A stretch of DNA of 64,000 bases from Bacteroidota bacterium (GTDB taxonomy: Bacteria > Bacteroidota > Bacteroidia > Cytophagales > Cyclobacteriaceae): positions 1 to 64,000 of the forward strand of contig JACOSO010000067.1 of assembly GCA_016178785.1 (NCBI GenBank), in the 5' to 3' direction. The notes below the pieces were generated by a model. The model was given only the letters and a program-made list of their open reading frames with translations. It was not told the origin of the DNA and ran no database searches. Numbering within the stretch: the stretch's first letter is position 1; the number at the start of each line of letters is the position of its first letter. This document shows positions 4,252 to 58,870 of this stretch, piece after piece. The position numbers were made by a program, and so were the translations under genes.

Positions 4252-5100
4252 ATGAGCGCACTAACCAGAATTGCATTTTTGTTAATTATTTTTTTGTGCG
4301 GCTGTTCGCCAAAAAACAAGAAAGAGGATAATCATGAAGCCCATATAAAATTCATTCAGTATTCGGAATCGGTGAAAGACACATTTTACATCGACATCCA
4401 ACTCCCGGCAGCGTATTTTAAAAACCCTGACAAGAAATATCCAACCGCATATTTGGTAGATGGGAATTTTTATTTCCCAATGATGTCGGCAATTAAGGAG
4501 CAATATGAATTTACCGGCCTAATGAAATCAGTAATTTTAGTCGGCATTGGATACAAGTCTTTCCAAATGATGGATTCACTGAGAGTAAGAGATTATTTGT
4601 ACCCTAGGGCACTTCCTTCTGATGAAGTTATTACCGATGGCGGAGCACAAAAATTTTTAGATTTCATCACCCAAGAACTAATACCAAAAGTTGATGCGGA
4701 ATATAGAACTGAAAAAGATAACAAGGCCTTACTCGGTCATTCGTTTGGAGGTTATTTTGTGCTGTACAGCTTACTTCATCAGTTGCAGAACAAAAGAAAT
4801 GACTTCAGAACTTTCATTTCCGCGAGTCCGTCATTGTGGTACAACAATTTTTATTTAAACCAATTGCCGGATTTGTTGGGCAAGAACCAACAGGACCTGA
4901 ATGTCTTTGTAAGTGTTGGTGGCAAAGAAGACCCGGTTTGGTCAGTCAAACCAGTAACCGATTTATCAGACAAGGTTCAAGAGAAAAGAATTAAAGGGTT
5001 ACAATTTCAAAGCAGGGTCTACAATCATTTGAACCATATGGATGTGGCAGTACTAGCGTTTACAATGGGCCTTCAGGGGTTTATGGGGGAAGGAAAATGA
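4252..5100 (+). CDS. lipoprotein alpha/beta-hydrolase (putative esterase family)
   Basis: 282 residues from the ATG at 4252; the TTG at 4234 would add residues before an otherwise well-placed signal. The signal ends in a lipobox LCGC with Cys18, so the protein is probably lipid-anchored in the envelope. The fold is the esterase-D/enterochelin-esterase type: YLVDGNFYF near residue 70 (oxyanion strand), nucleophile elbow GHSFGG with Ser164, and a late NHLNHMD segment with the likely catalytic His. An acidic residue near the GGKEDP segment could complete the triad. Substrate unknown; relatives cleave siderophores or acyl esters. It stands alone, and no siderophore genes are nearby. Confidence 0.8.
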   Translation: MSALTRIAFLLIIFLCGCSPKNKKEDNHEAHIKFIQYSESVKDTFYIDIQLPAAYFKNPDKKYPTAYLVDGNFYFPMMSAIKEQYEFTGLMKSVILVGIGYKSFQMMDSLRVRDYLYPRALPSDEVITDGGAQKFLDFITQELIPKVDAEYRTEKDNKALLGHSFGGYFVLYSLLHQLQNKRNDFRTFISASPSLWYNNFYLNQLPDLLGKNQQDLNVFVSVGGKEDPVWSVKPVTDLSDKVQEKRIKGLQFQSRVYNHLNHMDVAVLAFTMGLQGFMGEGK

Positions 5101-46613: not shown

Positions 46614-47160
46614 GACTCCGGTTCAGGAGATCCTTCGTTGCACTCAGGATTGGAGTCTAGGGAGGGGTATCATTCCTCTTAGATGCGGTAACAAAAAAAC
46701 TAAAACCAATTCTGAGCGACTGGCATAACGAGATTGTTTCAATGCTACAAGTTATGTTCTAGCGGAAAAGCGAGGCGGAGAAGACACGAGCGAAGAATCC
46801 CCTGTCCGGTGGACCGCTTTGTTGGATTCGAGCTCTGTTCAGGAGATCCTTCGTTGCACTCAGGATTGGAGTCGCGGTGGGTGGTTCGCTTCTCTTAGGA
46901 TGTGGTAACAAAAAAAACTAAAACCAATTCTGAGCGACTGGAGTAACGAGATAGCTTCAATGCTACAAGTTATGTTCTAGCACACAAGCGAGGCGGAGAA
47001 GACACGAGCGAAGAATCCCCTGTCCGGAGGACCGCTTTGTTGGATTCGAGCTCTGTTCAAGGGGATCCTTCGTTGCACTCAGGATTGGAGTCGCGTTGGG
47101 GGTTCGCTCCTCTTAGGCAGGGGGATCGCTGCGTTCAGGATTGGGACTTGCCTCAGGATT
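46614..47160. repeat. composite palindromic repeat block 1 (A1-B1-A2-B2-A3)
   Basis: Two 216-218-base units. Element A (GGAGATCCTTCGTTGCACTC followed by AGGATTGG) sits at 46625, 46841 and 47059, with a decayed copy at 47118. Element B (CCAATTCTGAGCG... GAAGAATCCCC, about 97 bases) sits at 46706-46802 and 46924-47020. The outer arms of A and B are inverted repeats of each other: CCAATTCTGA versus TCAGGATTGG, and GAAGAATCCCC versus GGGGATCCTTC. The GIY-YIG gene begins 15 bases on. The layout is built like a long REP/BIME, with B having an extra ~75-base insert in its loop. Confidence 0.75.
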
Positions 47161-47174
47161 AATAAATTTGTTTT

Positions 47175-47480
47175 ATGACTCCAATCGCTTACGTTTACAT
47201 CCTCACGAACAAGCACCACACTGTAGTATATGTGGGCATGACTACCGATCTGAGAACTCGACTCTGGGAGCATCAGGAAAAAGTAAATCCTAAAAGCTTT
47301 TCTGCTCGCTATAACGTTTTCCTACCTGTTTTTTATCAAGGTTTTACTACAGAAGAGGATGCAATCGAAAGAGAGCGATTCATAAAAGGTAAGAACCGAA
47401 AATGGAAAGAGGACTTAATACAAACTATGAATCCGCATTGGCACGATCTGACCGAGGAGATTATGAGTATGAAACCTTAA
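47175..47480 (+). CDS. small GIY-YIG family nuclease inside the repeat array
   Basis: 101 residues, the length of the UPF0213/YhbQ-like single-domain group. Motifs: YVYIL (residues 6-10), VVYVG (17-21, the YIG part), Arg27 in TTDLRTRL, His33 in WEHQ, and the second-half catalytic set EDAIERERFIKGKNRKW (Glu65/Glu67, Lys71). The Tyr, Arg and Glu residues used for single-strand nicking appear present. The gene lies exactly between repeat blocks 1 and 2 and its stop is followed at once by the block 2 leader. This resembles RAYT genes flanked by REP sequences; a role in making or spreading the repeats is a hypothesis. Confidence 0.8.
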   Translation: MTPIAYVYILTNKHHTVVYVGMTTDLRTRLWEHQEKVNPKSFSARYNVFLPVFYQGFTTEEDAIERERFIKGKNRKWKEDLIQTMNPHWHDLTEEIMSMKP

Positions 47481-48133
47481 GGACTCCGGTTCGGGAGATC
47501 CTTCGTTGCACTCAGGATTGGAGTCGCGGTGGGTGGTTCGCTCCTCTTAGGATGTGGTAACAAAAAAAAGTAAAACCAATTCTGAGCGGCTGGCGTAACG
47601 AGATTCTTCAATGCTACAAGTTATGTTCTCGCACTCAAGCGAGGCGGAGAAGATACTAGCGAAGAATCCCCTATGATTAGAGCTCTGTTCAGAGGATCCT
47701 TCGTTGCACTCAGGATTGGATTCGCAGTACGGGGCGACTCTTAGGACGCGCTAACAAAAAAAGTAAAACCAATTCTGAGCGACTGGAGTAACGAGATTGC
47801 TTCAATGTTACAAGTTATGTTTCTAGCACTCAAGCGAGTCGGAGAAGACACGAGCGAAGAATCCCCAAGGATTAGAGCTCTGTTCAGGGGATCCTTCGTT
47901 GCACTCAGGATTGGATTTGCGTTTTGGGGGTCGCTCCACTTAGGATGCCGGTAACAAAAAACGTAAAACCAATTCTGAGCGACTGGAGTAACGAGATTGC
48001 TTCAATGCTACAAGTTATGTTCTAGCACACAAGCGAGACAGAGAAGGCACGAGCGAAGAATCCCCTGTCCGGTGAACCCGCTTTGTTGGATTCGAGCTCT
48101 GTTCAGGGGATCGTTGCACTCAGGATTGGAGTC
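47481..48133. repeat. composite palindromic repeat block 2 (A4-B3-A5-B4-A6-B5-A7)
   Basis: Four A elements (47493, 47691, 47887, 48106; the last has lost ccttcg) and three B elements (47576-47671, 47769-47866, 47969-48065) at spacings of 195-220. Starts with GGACTCCGGTTCGGGAG, the same leader as block 1 (46614). Ends inside the 3' part of the 158-residue minus-strand gene, whose last codons and stop TGA (48120) are repeat-derived. Confidence 0.75.
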
Positions 48134-48596
48134 TAAAGAGGGGGCGTTCGTAATCGGCCTGAATATCTTCGGGTAATTTAGCTAAGGCACTTTCAATTTT
48201 CTTAAGCTGCTGCTGATAGAGATTGAAAAGCACTGTGCCAGCAGCAAGAGGGATTTTTGTTTCCTTCACTTTCATGCAAAAGAAAATACGCACTTCCAAT
48301 TCCGTTTGTTTGATGCCTGAATATTTGATTTGCTTGTTGACAAAGCGCAGAATCTTGCGAAGCGATTTTTTAATAAAGTAAACATTAGAAGCAGGAACGG
48401 TTTTAAAGAGCTCGCGAATTTCTTCTTTCACGTTCTCAACGTAGGCTTGTTCATTGTGCACTTCGAAAAGCAAATAGTTCAGCAGCTCCTTGTTTTCCTT
48501 TTTGTATTTCGCCAATAGCATGCACAACTCTTGCAACGAATCAGTATCATGCGAGCGCAGTTCTTTTTTAATTTCCTGGATGGAGGCGGTGGTCAT
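48120..48596 (-). CDS. conserved hypothetical helical protein with repeat-supplied stop
   Basis: 158 residues, strongly helical: IQEIKKELRSHDTDSLQELCMLLAKYKKENKELLNYLL, NVYFIKKSLRKILRFVNKQIKY, NLYQQQLKKIESALAKLPEDIQADYER. I recognise this as a Bacteroidota hypothetical family without a known function. Codons 155-158 and the stop (TGA 48120) lie in element A7 of block 2, so the 3' end was probably rewritten by repeat recombination. Its ATG at 48596 sits at the edge of a 140-base segment (48588-48735) duplicated at 49815-49963. Confidence 0.65.
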   Translation of the reverse strand: MTTASIQEIKKELRSHDTDSLQELCMLLAKYKKENKELLNYLLFEVHNEQAYVENVKEEIRELFKTVPASNVYFIKKSLRKILRFVNKQIKYSGIKQTELEVRIFFCMKVKETKIPLAAGTVLFNLYQQQLKKIESALAKLPEDIQADYERPLFRLQS

Positions 48597-48735
48597 TTAA
48601 CTCTTCGATATCAACTCCGGCTAATGTTGGTCGCTGATCAACAATGTAACTAAAAAATCTAAAGGCTTAACAAGTGTTGCTGGCCAGCGACACAGCAACA
48701 ACGAAAGAGACCAACTAGAACTTAGGTGACTCTAC
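48588..48735. repeat. duplicated spacer copy 1 (R2a), upstream of the hypothetical gene
   Basis: About 140 bases, roughly 85% identical by eye to 49815-49963. Contains inverted repeats GTCGCTG/CAGCGAC and GTTG-GTC-gct-GATCAAC. As it lies directly 5' of the 158-residue gene it may contain its promoter and operator. Confidence 0.6.
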
Positions 48736-48754
48736 TGAGAAAGATATGAGATAA

Positions 48755-49137
48755 CAAAAAAGTAAAACCAATTCTGAGCGGCTGGCGTAACGAGATTCTT
48801 CAATGCTACAAGTTATGTTCTCGCACTCAAGCGAGGCGGAGAAGATACTAGCGAAGAATCCCCTAGGATTAGAGCTCTGTTCAGGGGATCCTTCGTTGCG
48901 CTCAGGATTGGATTCGCGTTTGGGGGTCGCTCCACTTAGGATGTCGGTAACAAAAAACGTAAAACCAATTCTGAGCGACTGGAGTAACGAGATGCATCCA
49001 TACTGCAAGTTATATATTCTAGCATGCAATCGAGATGGAGAACACAAGAGCGAAGAATCCCCCCCGGTGGATCGTCTTGTTTAGGATTTCAGTTGAGGGG
49101 ATCCTTCGTTGCACTCAGGATTGGATTAGACCTTGTG
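48755..49137. repeat. composite palindromic repeat block 3 (B6-A8-B7-A9)
   Basis: B6 (48768-48863) is nearly identical to B3 (47576-47671), sharing the variants GCGGCTGGCG, TTCTTCAATG, TTCTCGCAC and GATACTAGCG; A8 (48885) and B7 (48965-49063) match A6 and B5. So block 3 is a mosaic of parts of block 2. A9 lies at 49097-49124 and touches the stop of the next minus-strand gene (49138). Unit spacing is 212. Confidence 0.7.
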
Positions 49138-49680: not shown

Positions 49681-49984
49681 AGGGTAGGTTTCAGATCGGA
49701 TAAGTTACCCCTAACGAACGGCAATAGCCAACACCTCACAGCTTATTTCTCACGCAATAAAAAACTCTTATCCTTCTTCCGTATGAGATTGTTGGTCACC
49801 GACCAACAATAACAAGGGGGTGGTCATTTAACGCATCGACATTAATCCGGTTAATGTTGGTTGCTGATCTACATTGTAACTAAAAAATCTAAAGCCTTAA
49901 CAAGTATTGCTGGTCAGCGACACAGCAACAATGAAAGAGACCACTACAACTTGAGGAACACAATTTCTCAAACTAGCGCAAGAG
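49681..49984. other. intergenic region with hairpin and duplicated spacer copy 2 (R2b)
   Basis: Holds a perfect 10-bp hairpin ATTGTTGGTC-acc-GACCAACAAT (49788-49810) and the second copy (R2b) of the R2 segment (49815-49963), which also begins GGTGGTCAT, the reverse of ATGACCACC. R2b therefore looks like the 5' flank and first codons of a lost copy of the 158-residue gene. No other gene is visible. Confidence 0.6.
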
Positions 49985-51043
49985 CTATGCTGCTAATTCC
50001 ATTTTATATAAATCAGACTTATAATTCATAAGATGACTAACAGCCAGTTGAATATGTTCTTTGGAGAAAAGATCTGCCTTTCGCTGAGACCATAATAGTT
50101 TTTGAATAACTTCTTCGTTTCTTGTCTTTTGTTCGACCATTAAAAAATCAACTGTTGCTAGTAATTCCAAACCATAGGCAGATTCGAATCCTTCAATTAA
50201 ACTAGTCACTTTTTTCAATCTCTCTTTTTCAGTTGAAGAAGTCTTTTCATTCAAAAATTCAGCTACATTTTTCTTCTTTGTTGATACAAGCTCAAGAGCT
50301 TCAAAAGGGCCAGCATCTTTCTGTTCGTATCCTTTTAGATAAAAGCCATTCATTGCATAAAGTACATGTCGAACTTTTCCCGAGTATGGACCATAAGTTC
50401 CTTTAACAAATTCTAACTTCATTTGCGTTTCTCCAAATCGTTGAAGAAAATAACTCAATTTCTCTGCCGCAAACTCACTCGCAAACTCCCCCAGAGACCT
50501 GTATTGATAAAGCAGCTGCAATAACATTGCTCGCACTGGAGTAAGGTGAGCAGCTTTGGGGCGATCCTCTTGTTTCAGTGCCTCGCGGATTGCTTCTGAT
50601 GGTTCGTATATCATAACATCGATAGACAAGTCTCTTAAAGAATTTTCAATAATTGGTCTAACCTCATTCCAATCTAGGCCTCCATTACCACAACCTAAAG
50701 GGGGAACTGCAATAGACTTAATATTAAAGCTGATTATCTGTTGACGCAAATCCTGTAAACCTGACTCTATCCAGTTAACACGTGAAGGGTACCTCCAGTG
50801 AGCCTTCGTAGGAAAGTTAATAACATAGTTTACTCCTTTTAAATCGTGAACCCTGACTACCTGGACCTTGCCTAATTGTATTTTCTTTTCCTTTACAGCA
50901 TCTAAATAGGCTTTATAATTTTCTGGAAAAGCATTTCTGAACTGAAGCGCGATACCTTTTCCCATTACTCCAACCGTATTTACCGTATTGACCAATGCCT
51001 CAGCAGGGGCATCTAGAATATTTCCTTGCTTATAAGAAATCAT
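49985..51043 (-). CDS. darG: DarG: macro-domain ADP-ribose hydrolase antitoxin
   Basis: 352 residues. Residues 1-155 form a macro domain (GNILDAPAEALVNTVNTVGVMGKGIALQF with the ADP-ribose loop GVMGKG at 25-30; VPPLGCGNGGLDW), which removes ADP-ribose from DNA. The rest (160-352, TPVRAMLLQLLYQYRSLGEF; VKGTYGPYSGKVRHVLYAM) is the DarG C-terminal domain that binds DarT. It overlaps darT by 14 bases and would be co-translated, giving antitoxin excess. The locus is a DarT-DarG pair: toxin ADP-ribosylates thymidine in single-stranded DNA and blocks replication, and it can act in phage defence. Confidence 0.9.
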   Translation of the reverse strand: MISYKQGNILDAPAEALVNTVNTVGVMGKGIALQFRNAFPENYKAYLDAVKEKKIQLGKVQVVRVHDLKGVNYVINFPTKAHWRYPSRVNWIESGLQDLRQQIISFNIKSIAVPPLGCGNGGLDWNEVRPIIENSLRDLSIDVMIYEPSEAIREALKQEDRPKAAHLTPVRAMLLQLLYQYRSLGEFASEFAAEKLSYFLQRFGETQMKLEFVKGTYGPYSGKVRHVLYAMNGFYLKGYEQKDAGPFEALELVSTKKKNVAEFLNEKTSSTEKERLKKVTSLIEGFESAYGLELLATVDFLMVEQKTRNEEVIQKLLWSQRKADLFSKEHIQLAVSHLMNYKSDLYKMELAA

Positions 51044-51674
51044 AGTATAGGGTTTTAGGGTCTATTCTTACTTCTAAAGTTAGCCCTACTGAATCGACCA
51101 AAGCTAATACTTTTTTATGAGCTGCTGCATCATATACTCCAAGGTATTCAAAGCAGGCAACAGGAACATGCTTCTTTACCAGAAACTCAGATTGCTTCTT
51201 CATCTGTCTTCTCAAATCTCGCGCATCACTCCTCCATTGAGTAGCATAAATAGCATCCCAGTCTAGTTTAGGAAAATGTTTCTTCTGATTGTACTTCGTA
51301 CTCGTGTCGCTCCGCGCGTGCCCATCAGAAAAAAAGAATTCCAATTCATGTTCCCTGATTTTATCAAAGGATGAGACGATATACACAATCTCTTCTTGGT
51401 TTATCTTCTCTATGTCTTCCCAGCCAGTTGCTATTTGGTATAGCATTGGTGAACGAGGACCCAAATAAAAAGGTACATATTCGGTAAACTTACCCCCCGG
51501 AGGTATGGGTGCATCCAAATCTTTTCGATAGTCTATTATAGATTTATCACCTATCTGACGGAAATGCTTGTTCTTATGTTTAGAATGCTCTGTGATTAAA
51601 CCATACTTGAGAATATGCGATAAGTTATCAACATGGGTAATTCTGAATAGCCATATTTTATCTGGTACTGTCAT
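51030..51674 (-). CDS. darT: DarT: single-stranded-DNA ADP-ribosyltransferase toxin
   Basis: 214 residues, DarT (DUF4433) family. Seen: the N-terminal WLFRITHVDNLSHILKYGLI, FYLGPRSPMLYQI (NAD-side region), FFFSDGHARSDTSTKY, and QSEFLV near residue 163 with the probable catalytic Glu163. DarT transfers ADP-ribose from NAD to thymidine bases in ssDNA. It is 46 bases downstream of the type ISP gene on the same strand, so the three genes may be one defence operon. Confidence 0.9.
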   Translation of the reverse strand: MTVPDKIWLFRITHVDNLSHILKYGLITEHSKHKNKHFRQIGDKSIIDYRKDLDAPIPPGGKFTEYVPFYLGPRSPMLYQIATGWEDIEKINQEEIVYIVSSFDKIREHELEFFFSDGHARSDTSTKYNQKKHFPKLDWDAIYATQWRSDARDLRRQMKKQSEFLVKKHVPVACFEYLGVYDAAAHKKVLALVDSVGLTLEVRIDPKTLYYDFL

Positions 51675-51720
51675 ATTCCTATGCCCTCGTCTTAGGGAAA
51701 AGTAAGGGTCAATCGTATTT

Positions 51721-54700
51721 TCATTTATCTAGGCTTTTCATTTCTGCGATAGTCTTCATTGTGTTCACACTAACTGTGCAAACTTTCTTAAGAAGTTCAA
51801 TCACATGTTCTTTATAGCCTGCAAATCGATAAGTGTCGAACTTCTCAGCAATAGTGGGATCACTTGGTTTCTTTTCTTTGTATTGGTCGAGTACCCATTC
51901 TAAGGCACTGCGGTTGCCGAGTTTGTATTCCCAAGCTTCTGACGGGACTCCTGTAAGCAGGGTCAATTCATCTATTTCGATGATACCTTTTTCTTTATCG
52001 GCTTTTAGTTTGACTTTGATCTTTTCTTTGCGTGCATACAAAGCTTCTGGTTCTTCGGATTTGCTAAAAAGTTCTTTAGCTTTTTTATGCTCTGCTTTAG
52101 TTGCGCTGGTGATTTCTTTTAAGGCATAAGGCTTAGCCTGCTCGTAGTTGATGTGCAAATCCATAAGCTCCTTTCCCCAATCTATCCACTGCTTAAAGTC
52201 TTCATAAAAAGGCAAGCGCGGAAACTCACGCTTCAAATTGAGCTCATACTTTTTGCGATAAGCTGGGTTGTGAAGAACAGCGTACGTGTAATAGAAAATA
52301 TCTTCTTTAGTGATTTTCTTGTTATCGTACTGCGTTTGAAATTGTTCCAATCCCCAATCAGTAATGTTATCTTGACGGTTGCCTTTGTCATCGTAGCGGT
52401 AGAGCGGAATGCATTGAGTGTCTCCATTAAAATGCAAATCAACTAAAAACTTAGAGGCAAGAGTATTGAAAGGCTTACTCCCCTGGTTTAATCCTATTAA
52501 AATATTCTCAGTGTTTGCTTTTGGAAAAATTAACGGTGTTTGATACCGCATCTCATTAAGCTCTGAAGCGTAGTAAATATTCAATTTCGTAAATGCTCTA
52601 TAATTACAAAGCCTGAATTCATCTTTATCAACTTCTAGCGATCTTCTTTTTATGATATCCTTTTTTAAATCTCTGGTGTATTTTATTTTCTTTGATAGGA
52701 ATTTTTCAATCTCATCATCCTTCAAAGTCTTTGGAAGGTTAGATAGGTCAGAATTGTACGCATCAATAAAGTACTTGATCTTAGATTTTAAGGTTTTTAT
52801 ATCAAAATCATAGACCCATTCGTCTCTATTTGAAACTGTTCCTAAAGTGAATAATTCAAAGACAGCTTCTTTGCTTCGTCCAAGTTTAACATCCTTCTCA
52901 AAAAGGCAAAGAAGATTTTCAAAATCATTATCAGCTAAATTCAACCAGTTATTACTTTTATCTGGTGTGATTTTTTCAAATTCAATGTCTTTAAGTTTGT
53001 GTTCTTTTAACCAAGCTAATTTCTCCTCTTTACGCCAAAAGTCATCAAGTGCAACATATTCAATCCGGCATTTACCTTCCGGCTTTTCCTTCTTCACCAA
53101 AAACATAATGGCTACACCGGTTTGTATGCCAAACACATTGTGGGTAGTGCCTGCAATTTTTTGGTTGGCGCGCACGTCACTTTTGGTATCAATGATAATC
53201 GCGTGACTAAAATCATCTTGCACGCATCTTCTAAATCCATCAAACGTGCGGCTGTCAATAAAACTACGGTTGGTGATCATGGCAATCACGCCATTCCTAT
53301 CAATGCGGTCCATTGCCCAGCGGTAAAAGCGGGCGTACATGTCATACACTTTTGTTTTCTGTGCGGTGCTGTATTTGATATAGGTTTCTTTTATTCGCTT
53401 ATCAACATCTTTATACTCACGGTTTTTATTGTTCTCGTTCTCATTTTGCTGGTTTGCATTGTAGGGAGGGTTGCCAATAATCACGCTGATCTTTTTTGTG
53501 TTTTGCCTTTTGATCCGTTCTGCATTCTCCGTGCTAAAAGCAAAAAGTCCATGTTGCTTGCCTGTGTGAGCTAATGCGTCAGTGTTATCGAGTGTATCTA
53601 CAAAGCAAATGTTTTTATACTCATCATAATAGCCCATTTTCTGCTTGTAGGTGTACTCAATGTTAAGGTTGGCGATGTAATAAGGCAGTATAGCTATTTC
53701 GTTGGCATGTATCTCCTCTTTGAACTTGTAAGGCAAGTGTTGTTTGGGAATGTATTCAATCAAATCACAAATAAATGTACCCGTGCCGGTGGCGGGGTCG
53801 AGTATCTCCACGTTTTTGTCCGCCAGTGTTTTTCCAAAATGTCTTTCGAGTAAATACTCCGTGCTTTCAATCATGAAGTGCACAATCTCATTTGGAGTAT
53901 AGACAACACCTAAACGATCAGCACCTTTCGGGTTATACGCTTTATAAAAATTTTCGTAAAGAACTTTTAGGAACTTTTGCTTTTCGTGGTGATCGGCTAT
54001 ACTCGCGCTGGCTTCCTTAATGGTACCATAGTAACTCTGCAAACTGTCGAGCATGTTTTTACGAATCGAACGTGTAAAAATGATTTCCACTAAATGTTCG
54101 ATCTGCTGTGCAATGTTATTTTGTCTGTGAAAATCAGGGTCGTTAAAAATATTTACAAAAATATCTGAAGTGGCAATGTGCTGAATGATCATCTCGCGGA
54201 TGTCTGCCAGTGTGATTTCAGGATTGATCTCGGCCTGGCAATGCTCCCAAAACTTTTGCCGTGCCTCCATGAATTTTTTATTCTTCTCGCCTTCTTCATC
54301 AATTTTCTTTCGAAGTGTTTCAATGATGGTTGGCAAGTCTTCTTTAAATTTTTCAATTGCCTCAACGAAATCGCGTATCTCCGGTTTTTCAAAATTCACA
54401 AAAGCATTCAAGATGCGGTCGAGTGCATCAGGGTCTTTCATGTCCACCTGCAACAACTTCTCACCATTTTGATATAAAACAGCTGTGGCACTGTCTTCAA
54501 ACAATGCGTTGGTGAGCGGATAACCTTTTTTGAGTTTCTTGTCAATCTCTTCTTCTATGCCATCACTTTCGTCTTTGCTCTCCCAATAACCAAAGTCGAG
54601 ACGCAAGGCATTCTTTAAAACTCCATCAGGTTGTACTTCATTTCCCTTGGTTCCCCTAATTCTTATCTCTGTAATGAGCTCTAGATTTTTCTTATTCGCG

Positions 54701-54816
54701 TAGTCATTTAACAATGGGTAAAAAGCCTGGCGAATAGCAGTTTCATTTCGCGAGCCACCGTATTGAATAATGCGATCAAGTTTGGAATAGTATTGATTGA
54801 TGAGTTGTCGAGACAT
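51721..54816 (-). CDS. type ISP-like restriction/methylation polypeptide (nuclease plus N6 methyltransferase)
   Basis: 1031 residues. N-terminal nuclease candidate: PD at 63-64, then Glu79-Ser-Lys81 (YWESKD), a PD-(D/E)xK pattern. Helical coupling region to about 290. Adenine-N6 methyltransferase: motif I DPATGTGTF (342-350) and NPPY (451-454). The C-terminal part (650-1000, SLEVDKDEFRLCNYRAF, YYTYAVLHNPAYRKKYE) is like the type ISP target-recognition domain. The RecA-type helicase module of classical LlaBIII/LlaGI enzymes is missing, and the length (1031 instead of about 1500) fits that. The protein may act as a type II-like enzyme. It sits with DarTG in one strand. Confidence 0.85.
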   Translation of the reverse strand: MSRQLINQYYSKLDRIIQYGGSRNETAIRQAFYPLLNDYANKKNLELITEIRIRGTKGNEVQPDGVLKNALRLDFGYWESKDESDGIEEEIDKKLKKGYPLTNALFEDSATAVLYQNGEKLLQVDMKDPDALDRILNAFVNFEKPEIRDFVEAIEKFKEDLPTIIETLRKKIDEEGEKNKKFMEARQKFWEHCQAEINPEITLADIREMIIQHIATSDIFVNIFNDPDFHRQNNIAQQIEHLVEIIFTRSIRKNMLDSLQSYYGTIKEASASIADHHEKQKFLKVLYENFYKAYNPKGADRLGVVYTPNEIVHFMIESTEYLLERHFGKTLADKNVEILDPATGTGTFICDLIEYIPKQHLPYKFKEEIHANEIAILPYYIANLNIEYTYKQKMGYYDEYKNICFVDTLDNTDALAHTGKQHGLFAFSTENAERIKRQNTKKISVIIGNPPYNANQQNENENNKNREYKDVDKRIKETYIKYSTAQKTKVYDMYARFYRWAMDRIDRNGVIAMITNRSFIDSRTFDGFRRCVQDDFSHAIIIDTKSDVRANQKIAGTTHNVFGIQTGVAIMFLVKKEKPEGKCRIEYVALDDFWRKEEKLAWLKEHKLKDIEFEKITPDKSNNWLNLADNDFENLLCLFEKDVKLGRSKEAVFELFTLGTVSNRDEWVYDFDIKTLKSKIKYFIDAYNSDLSNLPKTLKDDEIEKFLSKKIKYTRDLKKDIIKRRSLEVDKDEFRLCNYRAFTKLNIYYASELNEMRYQTPLIFPKANTENILIGLNQGSKPFNTLASKFLVDLHFNGDTQCIPLYRYDDKGNRQDNITDWGLEQFQTQYDNKKITKEDIFYYTYAVLHNPAYRKKYELNLKREFPRLPFYEDFKQWIDWGKELMDLHINYEQAKPYALKEITSATKAEHKKAKELFSKSEEPEALYARKEKIKVKLKADKEKGIIEIDELTLLTGVPSEAWEYKLGNRSALEWVLDQYKEKKPSDPTIAEKFDTYRFAGYKEHVIELLKKVCTVSVNTMKTIAEMKSLDK

Positions 54817-58527: not shown

Positions 58528-58758
58528 GTTGCTGGCATGAAATACTAAATTTAACTGTCATGCCGGACCGCGCTGGAAAGTGTGATAGCGTTCCGGCATC
58601 TCGACCGAATCTCATCATTTACTCCGAACCATATGCGCAAGAGCAACCAATTGCAGCCATTAGGTTCCGACTAAACAAGTAGACTCGATGAGATTCCGGC
58701 ATTCGTTCCTCAGCCGGAATGACAAACAGTGAGTAGGCGTATATGATCCGTAAAAACA

Positions 58759-58791: not shown

Positions 58792-58799
58792 AGTTTCAG

Positions 58800-58870
58800 A
58801 GGTTCCGAGCGGATTCGAACCGCTGTAGGAGCTTTTGCAGAGCTCAGCCTAGCCACTCGGCCACGGAACC
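58800..58870 (-). tRNA. tRNA-Cys (anticodon GCA)
   Basis: Read on the minus strand: acceptor GGTTCCG pairs with CGGAACC; D-arm and T-arm (GGTTCGAATCC) are intact; anticodon stem GAGCT/AGCTC encloses the 7-base loop CTGCAAA with GCA. The discriminator (58800, T on the minus strand, that is U73) is the one used by Cys tRNA. CCA is not encoded. The gene lies downstream of its own promoter (58910) and has a terminator. Confidence 0.95.

Follow-up and report, generated by a model that had tools for sequence, protein, structure and literature searches.

Why does a gene for a small nuclease lie amid an array of palindromic repeats? The question is raised by a 64,000-nucleotide stretch of a Bacteroidota bacterium (GCA_016178785.1, contig JACOSO010000067.1, positions 1 to 64,000; hereafter the window), in which nine A and seven B repeats, forming three blocks that extend from 46614 to about 49125, surround a gene for a GIY-YIG nuclease of 101 amino acids (aa; 47175-47480). 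An earlier note on this DNA had described that layout, which mapping of repeats and open reading frames (ORFs) bore out, and had suggested a nuclease/repeat pair like that of RAYT transposases and their palindromic repeats (REPs). We give a probability of roughly 0.6 to the reading that the gene and its array are the two parts of one mobile system, a one-domain GIY-YIG nuclease and a REP that this nuclease recognises. REPs built to one plan bracket genes of the clade to which the window gene belongs (the R clade) much more frequently than they bracket neighbouring genes, and nuclease lineages track repeat types. To that extent the suggested pairing stands, R genes being flanked by REPs and their neighbours not. 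Where it gives way is in the partner, which is a class of repeat rather than the window's particular A/B sequence, because the A/B unit, sought in relatives as the note had proposed, occurred in 0/59 other genomes of the family and was rejected as a family-wide repeat.

The R clade and its repeats

The window's genome contains 14 matches to the Pfam GIY-YIG family (PF01541), and the first five other GIY-YIG loci inspected there adjoin palindromes or tRNA fragments of differing kinds. Regions of up to 12 kb around single-domain GIY-YIG genes were then taken from among the matches listed for 60 genomes (the family set). These 80 regions comprised nine UvrC controls, two that were dropped for frames above 900 aa (L077 and L107) and 69 that were kept; with five loci of the window's own genome and the window itself they made 75 loci, of which 40 had a tRNA no farther than 250 bp away and 35 did not. 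Within 250 bp of the gene, 41% of the bases belonged to a local direct repeat, a share that fell to about 2% at distances above 1 kb and to 0% in the UvrC loci. A direct-repeat pair embraced the gene at 35/40 tRNA-linked and 25/35 other loci, compared with 0/375 and 4/350 pseudo-sites of the same regions and 0/9 UvrC loci.

A tree of the 75 proteins separates the R clade (28 rows, support 100/98), none of whose members adjoins a tRNA and whose proteins, of about 99 aa, are encoded among palindromic repeats, from the T proteins that make up the rest, most of which abut tRNA genes. Pairing with such repeats holds for the R clade, the remaining small GIY-YIG genes going with tRNA genes. T subclades track tRNA isotype, Leu (6/6) and Val (5/5) forming single clades and other isotypes being split, and the isotype labels require 16 changes on the tree against 42.8 when shuffled (0/200 shuffles as low). 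T loci (e.g., L041, L087, L097, L101, L115, L127, L132, L144 and L148, and C4, C28, C63, C83, C95 and C80 in the window's genome) carry partial tRNA copies on the opposite side of the gene, into which a short palindrome, for example TCCCGATAGCTATCGGGA, has often been inserted; several of these loci consist of tandem gene-plus-tRNA-fragment units. The T class resembles a mobile gene family that targets tRNA genes.

The repeats at R genes follow a common plan, in which a YGTC tag is followed by a stem A[TC]NNN, GA, 3-14 nt, GA, the complementary stem and then CT or CC; a tandem GA.GA mismatch is frequent in these stems. In the simplest arrangement the gene has one REP before it and an inverted REP after it. 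When perfect or near-perfect palindromes were sought, the signal near genes was strong in the family set but only approximately twofold in a second, named set (79 loci with named organisms, retrieved by protein pattern), and 1/9 UvrC loci had a CGTC-tagged palindrome in the near-perfect scan. Because such scans miss GA.GA stems, we allowed mismatched stems and used other dinucleotides as controls. REP counts in the family set covered 28 of the 35 loci without a nearby tRNA, leaving out L039, L042, L080, L090 and L130 (tRNA-like) and L093 and L103 (outside the R clade). Around these 28 loci there were 45 GA.GA hairpins in the 40 kb within 700 bp (at 12 loci) against 12 in the 244 kb farther off, and around the 79 named loci 146 in 112 kb (at 33 loci) against 40 in 586 kb; in the named set 133/146 of the near hairpins carried the tag TGTC. 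Other mismatched dinucleotides near R genes numbered 0-15, the TC counts equalling those of GA because they record the same element on the opposite strand. At control loci GA hairpins were sparse: the UvrC loci had one in the 11.6 kb close to the gene and three in the 70 kb farther away, and the T loci had two close by.

Flanking REPs were then counted within 300 bp under a rule that required the tag and a stem with either GA.GA or paired bases. REPs lay on both sides of 11/30 and 31/83 R genes in the two sets (in the named set 5/88 genes were excluded as too near a contig end), against 0/138 and 2/335 neighbouring genes (Fisher 1e-9 and 3e-22). Neighbouring ORFs of 80-150 aa gave 0/32 and 1/73, and T genes 0/57, a result on which we rejected the idea that all small GIY-YIG genes are paired with REPs. 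Under a looser criterion, a direct repeat embraced the gene at 45/79 named loci and at 8/763 pseudo-sites. By phylum, REPs were present at 34/60 named loci of Bacteroidota, 1/1 of Chlorobiota and 1/2 of Calditrichota. Since the GA.GA rule and the tag were first noticed in the family and named loci, these counts are not blind, and the plasmid records described next come nearer to a hold-out.

A 2013 survey (Di Nocera et al., PMC3733652) divides REPs into GTAG and CGTC superfamilies, and it is the second that the plasmid loci resemble. A tblastn search with one R protein matched 32 plasmid records (some of chromosome size), mostly from Rhizobiaceae and Sphingomonadaceae, with Azospirillum and Neisseria included. 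Sixteen were taken on the protein alone, avoiding near-copies: 11 alpha-, one beta- and two gamma-proteobacteria, one cyanobacterium and one member of the Bacteroidota. A CGTC-type REP lay within 300 bp at 16/16 loci, two of which (L268 and L282) represent one neighbourhood sampled from two strains of Shinella, and on both sides at 12/16; neighbouring genes had one within 300 bp in 2/38 cases and on both sides in 0/38. The stem rule behind these numbers was broadened to GC-starting stems after L274 had been seen, the earlier count being 15/16 loci within 900 bp under a looser tag rule, and at L270, where the frame extends beyond the domain, the gene end was set at 4350. Shinella has, for example, cgtc-ATCCTCGGGCTTGACCCGAGGAT-cca, and the Neisseria record, with 16 units within 900 bp, has cgtc-ATTCCCGCGCAGGCGGGAAT-cta and its kin. 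In Azospirillum lipoferum the R gene lies between sufB and sufC, inside the suf operon, and our own reading of the flanks in Shinella PSBB067, whose record is unannotated there, gives the same placement. L276 comes from a plasmid of Planktothrix agardhii; its R-clade gene, accompanied by TGTC REPs, has a type IIL restriction-modification gene on one side and drmA, a DISARM gene, on the other.

Nuclease lineages, repeat types and a polymorphic site

Types of repeat stem are clustered on the nuclease tree, with 16 changes among 38 labelled rows against 24.4 when shuffled (0/200). The window protein and its nearest relatives, L114 (same genus, 66% identity) and L091, form one clade (98/94), and all three have GATCCTTCG and CTCAGGA arms. 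Flank sequence was common to 8/378 pairs of R loci, of which 7/8 fell within one nuclease subclade and joined different genera, although subclades were read from the tree by eye for this count and pairs are not independent. Across 148 Bacteroidota genomes, an R match (accepted at E values of 1e-12 or below, so that weak matches may lie outside the R clade) was present in 20/22 genomes with at least five copies of one REP pattern, compared with 60/126 others (Fisher 1.2e-4, without phylogenetic correction), which agrees with the association between repeat-rich genomes and the nuclease that the earlier note had asked about. In the same genomes the number of REPs went with the number of R genes (Spearman 0.43, kinship ignored).

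Six related Sphingobium plasmid records were compared at a site between fnrL and a response-regulator gene. Three of the six carry REP-gene-REP, one of these gene copies having a single-base deletion; two have no gene and, at the same position, a lone palindrome with CGTC at each end (one perfect, one imperfect); and the sixth has neither REP nor gene. The occurrence of a lone REP and of REP-gene-REP at one position shows that a REP site can harbour the gene, and the pair on either side of it resembles a REP that has been duplicated.

On the favoured reading of a mobile pair, the nuclease would recognise a REP folded into its hairpin, perhaps in an extruded cruciform or on single-stranded DNA, through its tag and often mismatched stem. 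It would then nick or cut the REP; GIY-YIG nucleases act by a hydrolytic mechanism. Repair of the cut would copy REP-gene-REP into a REP, as in homing, and slippage or template transfer during repair could leave extra REPs, giving rise to local arrays and scattered copies. The gene-bearing form would thus be the autonomous element and bare REPs its non-autonomous copies. The window, L114 and L091 would represent a derived lineage with its own repeat type, expanded in the window to a local A/B array.

The array, its gene and their surroundings

The window protein matches PF01541 with an E value of 3.8e-17, GIY-YIG and T5orf172 being its only Pfam families. Y8, Y19, R29, H33 and E67, which we take to be catalytic-type positions, are invariant in 16 sequences and intact in this protein, and the conserved Tyr, Arg and Glu in its GIY-YIG domain place it in the GIY-YIG nuclease superfamily. 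Its AlphaFold2 model is a single domain (pLDDT 95.6) whose best fold match is the UPF0213 protein 1zg2 (E 1.4e-4), with weak matches (E 0.016 and more) to Slx1 branched-DNA nucleases and the UvrC N-domain. The closest solved sequences are likewise UPF0213 proteins, 1zg2 (E 1.1e-9) and 1ywl (E 6.9e-6). PADLOC gave no match to the protein.

Features of the array are collected in Table 1. All A positions listed there are exact copies (n=7) of the core GATCCTTCGTTGCACTCAGGATTGG, apart from the one-mismatch copy in block 3 and the truncated copy in block 2, and the 50-nt B segment ends in AGCGAAGAATCCCC. Blocks 1 and 2 begin with the same 20 nt, GACTCCGGTTC(A/G)GGAGATCC, in which one base differs. 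The earlier claim that the repeats flank the gene exactly is right for the 3' side, where block 2 starts two bases past the last base of the gene, and too strong for the 5' side, where recognisable repeat stops at 47117 and a degenerate copy at 47144, 30-57 bp upstream of the ATG. A genome-wide search, which the earlier note had also called for, did find copies outside the window: with up to three mismatches the A core has 11 matches in the 4.47-Mb genome, eight at the array and three on contig C56, and the reversed pattern has none, so the array is more than chance. Diverged repeat copies lie on contigs C56 and C7, and a GIY-YIG model search of those repeat stretches (L036 and L037) found no match. 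No clean empty site for the array was found among relatives, the downstream flank being unconserved; G090 and G064 are collinear with the window to about 46576 and 46567, respectively, and the block is absent from both.

Table 1. Repeat blocks, hairpin example and genes of the array in the window
Feature	Position	Strand	Remarks
Repeat block 1	46614..47144		A at 46629, 46845, 47064; B segments at 46753, 46971
A hairpin example	46629..46653	-	ATCCT-GA-GTGCAAC-GA-AGGAT; tandem GA.GA mismatch interrupts the stem
Degenerate A-like copy, block 1	47121-47144		
GIY-YIG nuclease gene, 101 aa, R clade	47175..47480	+	Intact; sits between blocks 1 and 2
Repeat block 2	47482..48133		A at 47497, 47695, 47890, truncated A at 48106; B at 47622, 47817, 48016
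158-aa ORF, no Pfam family	48120..48596	-	Between blocks 2 and 3; last codons extend into block 2
Repeat block 3	about 48746..49125		A at 48887 (one mismatch), 49100; B at 48814, 49013

Near block 3, positions 48584-48723 and 49815-49952 are 89% identical, which points to a further local duplication. A palindrome at 49785-49819, ATTGTTGGTCACCGACCAACAAT, lies in a stretch that matches 8/39 other genomes of the genus sample, repeatedly in some, and is a candidate dispersed repeat or binding site. Just past the array (49985-54816) are the toxin-antitoxin defence pair DarG (macro) and DarT and a type ISP/IIG restriction-modification protein; as this flank is unconserved in the genus sample, the array borders a variable defence region. 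Farther on, at 58687-58723, is a REP of the type found with the C16 nuclease (two mismatches), 76 bp from a tRNA-Cys gene at 58799-58870.

Competing explanations and known systems

Several observations weigh against a mobile pair of nuclease and REP. The window itself is an awkward case: TCCA precedes every A hairpin listed for it, in the place taken by YGTC in related REPs, so that these hairpins bear none of the tags CGTC, TGTC or CCTC, and its gene did not score positive in the flanking-REP count because its repeats are without the required tag. The second ORF of the array is bounded by repeats just as the nuclease gene is, and separates block 3. Close REP copies are few in the window's genome: those of the C16 nuclease number six (four beside the gene, one in the window and one on C26), and those of the C24 type two, both adjoining their gene. 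Under the strict rule 59/118 R genes have no element within 600 bp, and the orientation of flanking pairs is mixed (17 +/-, 11 -/+, 10 +/+, 8 -/-). Named loci outside Bacteroidota are mostly without REPs (Bacillota 0/6, and none at five or more single loci of other phyla), and in the near-perfect-stem scan of the named set the CGTC tag did not exceed shuffled tags (10 vs 4-24); these two results are less clear than the rest and slightly lower our confidence. Finally, two genomes rich in REPs, G100 (217 copies) and G107 (22 copies), encode no small GIY-YIG protein, their only GIY-YIG frames being 460-609 aa long, so repeats can persist without the nuclease.

That last observation also favours the main rival, which shares the step of REP recognition with the reading that we prefer. 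Here the gene would be a selfish homing gene that cuts to insert itself, using REPs (and, in T proteins, tRNA genes) as abundant harmless landing sites, and the REPs would spread otherwise. Insertion into a REP already in place would account for the Sphingobium site, and the T proteins, with their isotype-specific occupation of tRNA genes and tandem gene-plus-tRNA-fragment units, look like the products of site-specific homing genes. Landing alone, however, leaves unexplained why repeat arrays pile up around R genes, and the joint rise of REP and R-gene numbers across genomes speaks against it as well; we regard this rival as unlikely, if the strongest of the three considered. A host enzyme for DNA repair or structure resolution, which removes or trims REP hairpins and is linked to them by regulation or co-selection instead of mobility, seems improbable to us. 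The weak resemblance of the fold to Slx1 and the UvrC N-domain would suit such an enzyme, as would the small COG2827 genes of Caulobacter, which PMC1839093 considers as candidates for repair nucleases and one of which has an SOS box. The presence and absence of the gene at a REP site, its insertion inside the Azospirillum suf operon, the several sites per genome and the matching of clades to repeats, on the other hand, look mobile and not like housekeeping. Coincidence or an assembly artefact is more improbable still: repeats and small genes both favour intergenic space, and several of the genomes are draft assemblies, but the controls already contradict this, neighbouring ORFs of similar size being almost never flanked on both sides and UvrC genes never embraced by direct repeats, and the same pattern occurs in complete plasmid records.

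Returning to the mobile pair, the evidence suggests that a known class of palindromic repeats in bacteria has its missing partner in the R-clade GIY-YIG family. In its widest form, which we hold to be evenly balanced between right and wrong, the proposal is that this one-domain clade would be the missing enzyme of CGTC REPs (rhizobial REPs, Neisseria dRS3, Bacteroidota TGTC repeats and possibly Rickettsia RPEs), that it would recognise tagged hairpins, many with tandem GA.GA, and make up, with its repeats, a mobile element of a new class that has no relation to RAYT, and that other small GIY-YIG proteins of the same fold would colonise tRNA genes by isotype. If so, the origin of many intergenic hairpins in alpha-proteobacteria, Neisseria and Bacteroidota could be tested with a protein of about 100 aa and a substrate of about 26 nt, the combination of a REP with a dedicated nuclease would have arisen twice from unrelated enzymes, and a role would be found for small proteins whose sole label at present is "GIY-YIG nuclease family protein". 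No paper linking GIY-YIG nucleases to REPs was found in the open-access literature by title and start of abstract, preprints being outside that scope.

Among known systems, free-standing GIY-YIG homing endonucleases of the I-TevI and SegB type belong to the same superfamily, and R genes resemble them in that the presumed target flanks the gene and that, at the Sphingobium site, the gene is present or absent at its target in close relatives. They differ in that R proteins have one domain and the target is a multicopy palindrome instead of a single conserved gene; no intron or intein was seen at the R loci read. UPF0213 proteins are closest among solved sequences and in fold, although their entry names indicate neither a function nor a link to repeats. 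CGTC REPs, including those of Neisseria and rhizobia, seemingly have no dedicated transposase according to PMC3733652, which names no enzyme for them. The repeats of R-clade relatives agree with that superfamily in their unpaired CGTC/TGTC/CCTC tag, AT-starting stem, hairpin and short tail (mostly CCA-like in the plasmid set), and the Neisseria repeats near an R gene correspond to dRS3; the untagged A repeat of the window and the tandem GA.GA of many Bacteroidota elements set them apart. With RAYT/TnpA-REP systems and their GTAG REPs (REPtrons; PMC8266576 and PMC3733652), the R system has in common a small nuclease gene that adjoins short palindromes or lies between them, a conserved unpaired tetranucleotide, partly imperfect stems and matched types of enzyme and repeat. 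Its enzyme, however, is GIY-YIG (PF01541) and not an HUH (Y1) tyrosine transposase, and its tag is YGTC (TCCA in the window) and not GTAG. The R system would work like RAYT-REP, with an enzyme gene flanked by its repeats, yet lacks the enzyme and the tag that define that family, which makes it a variant distinct from RAYT-REP.

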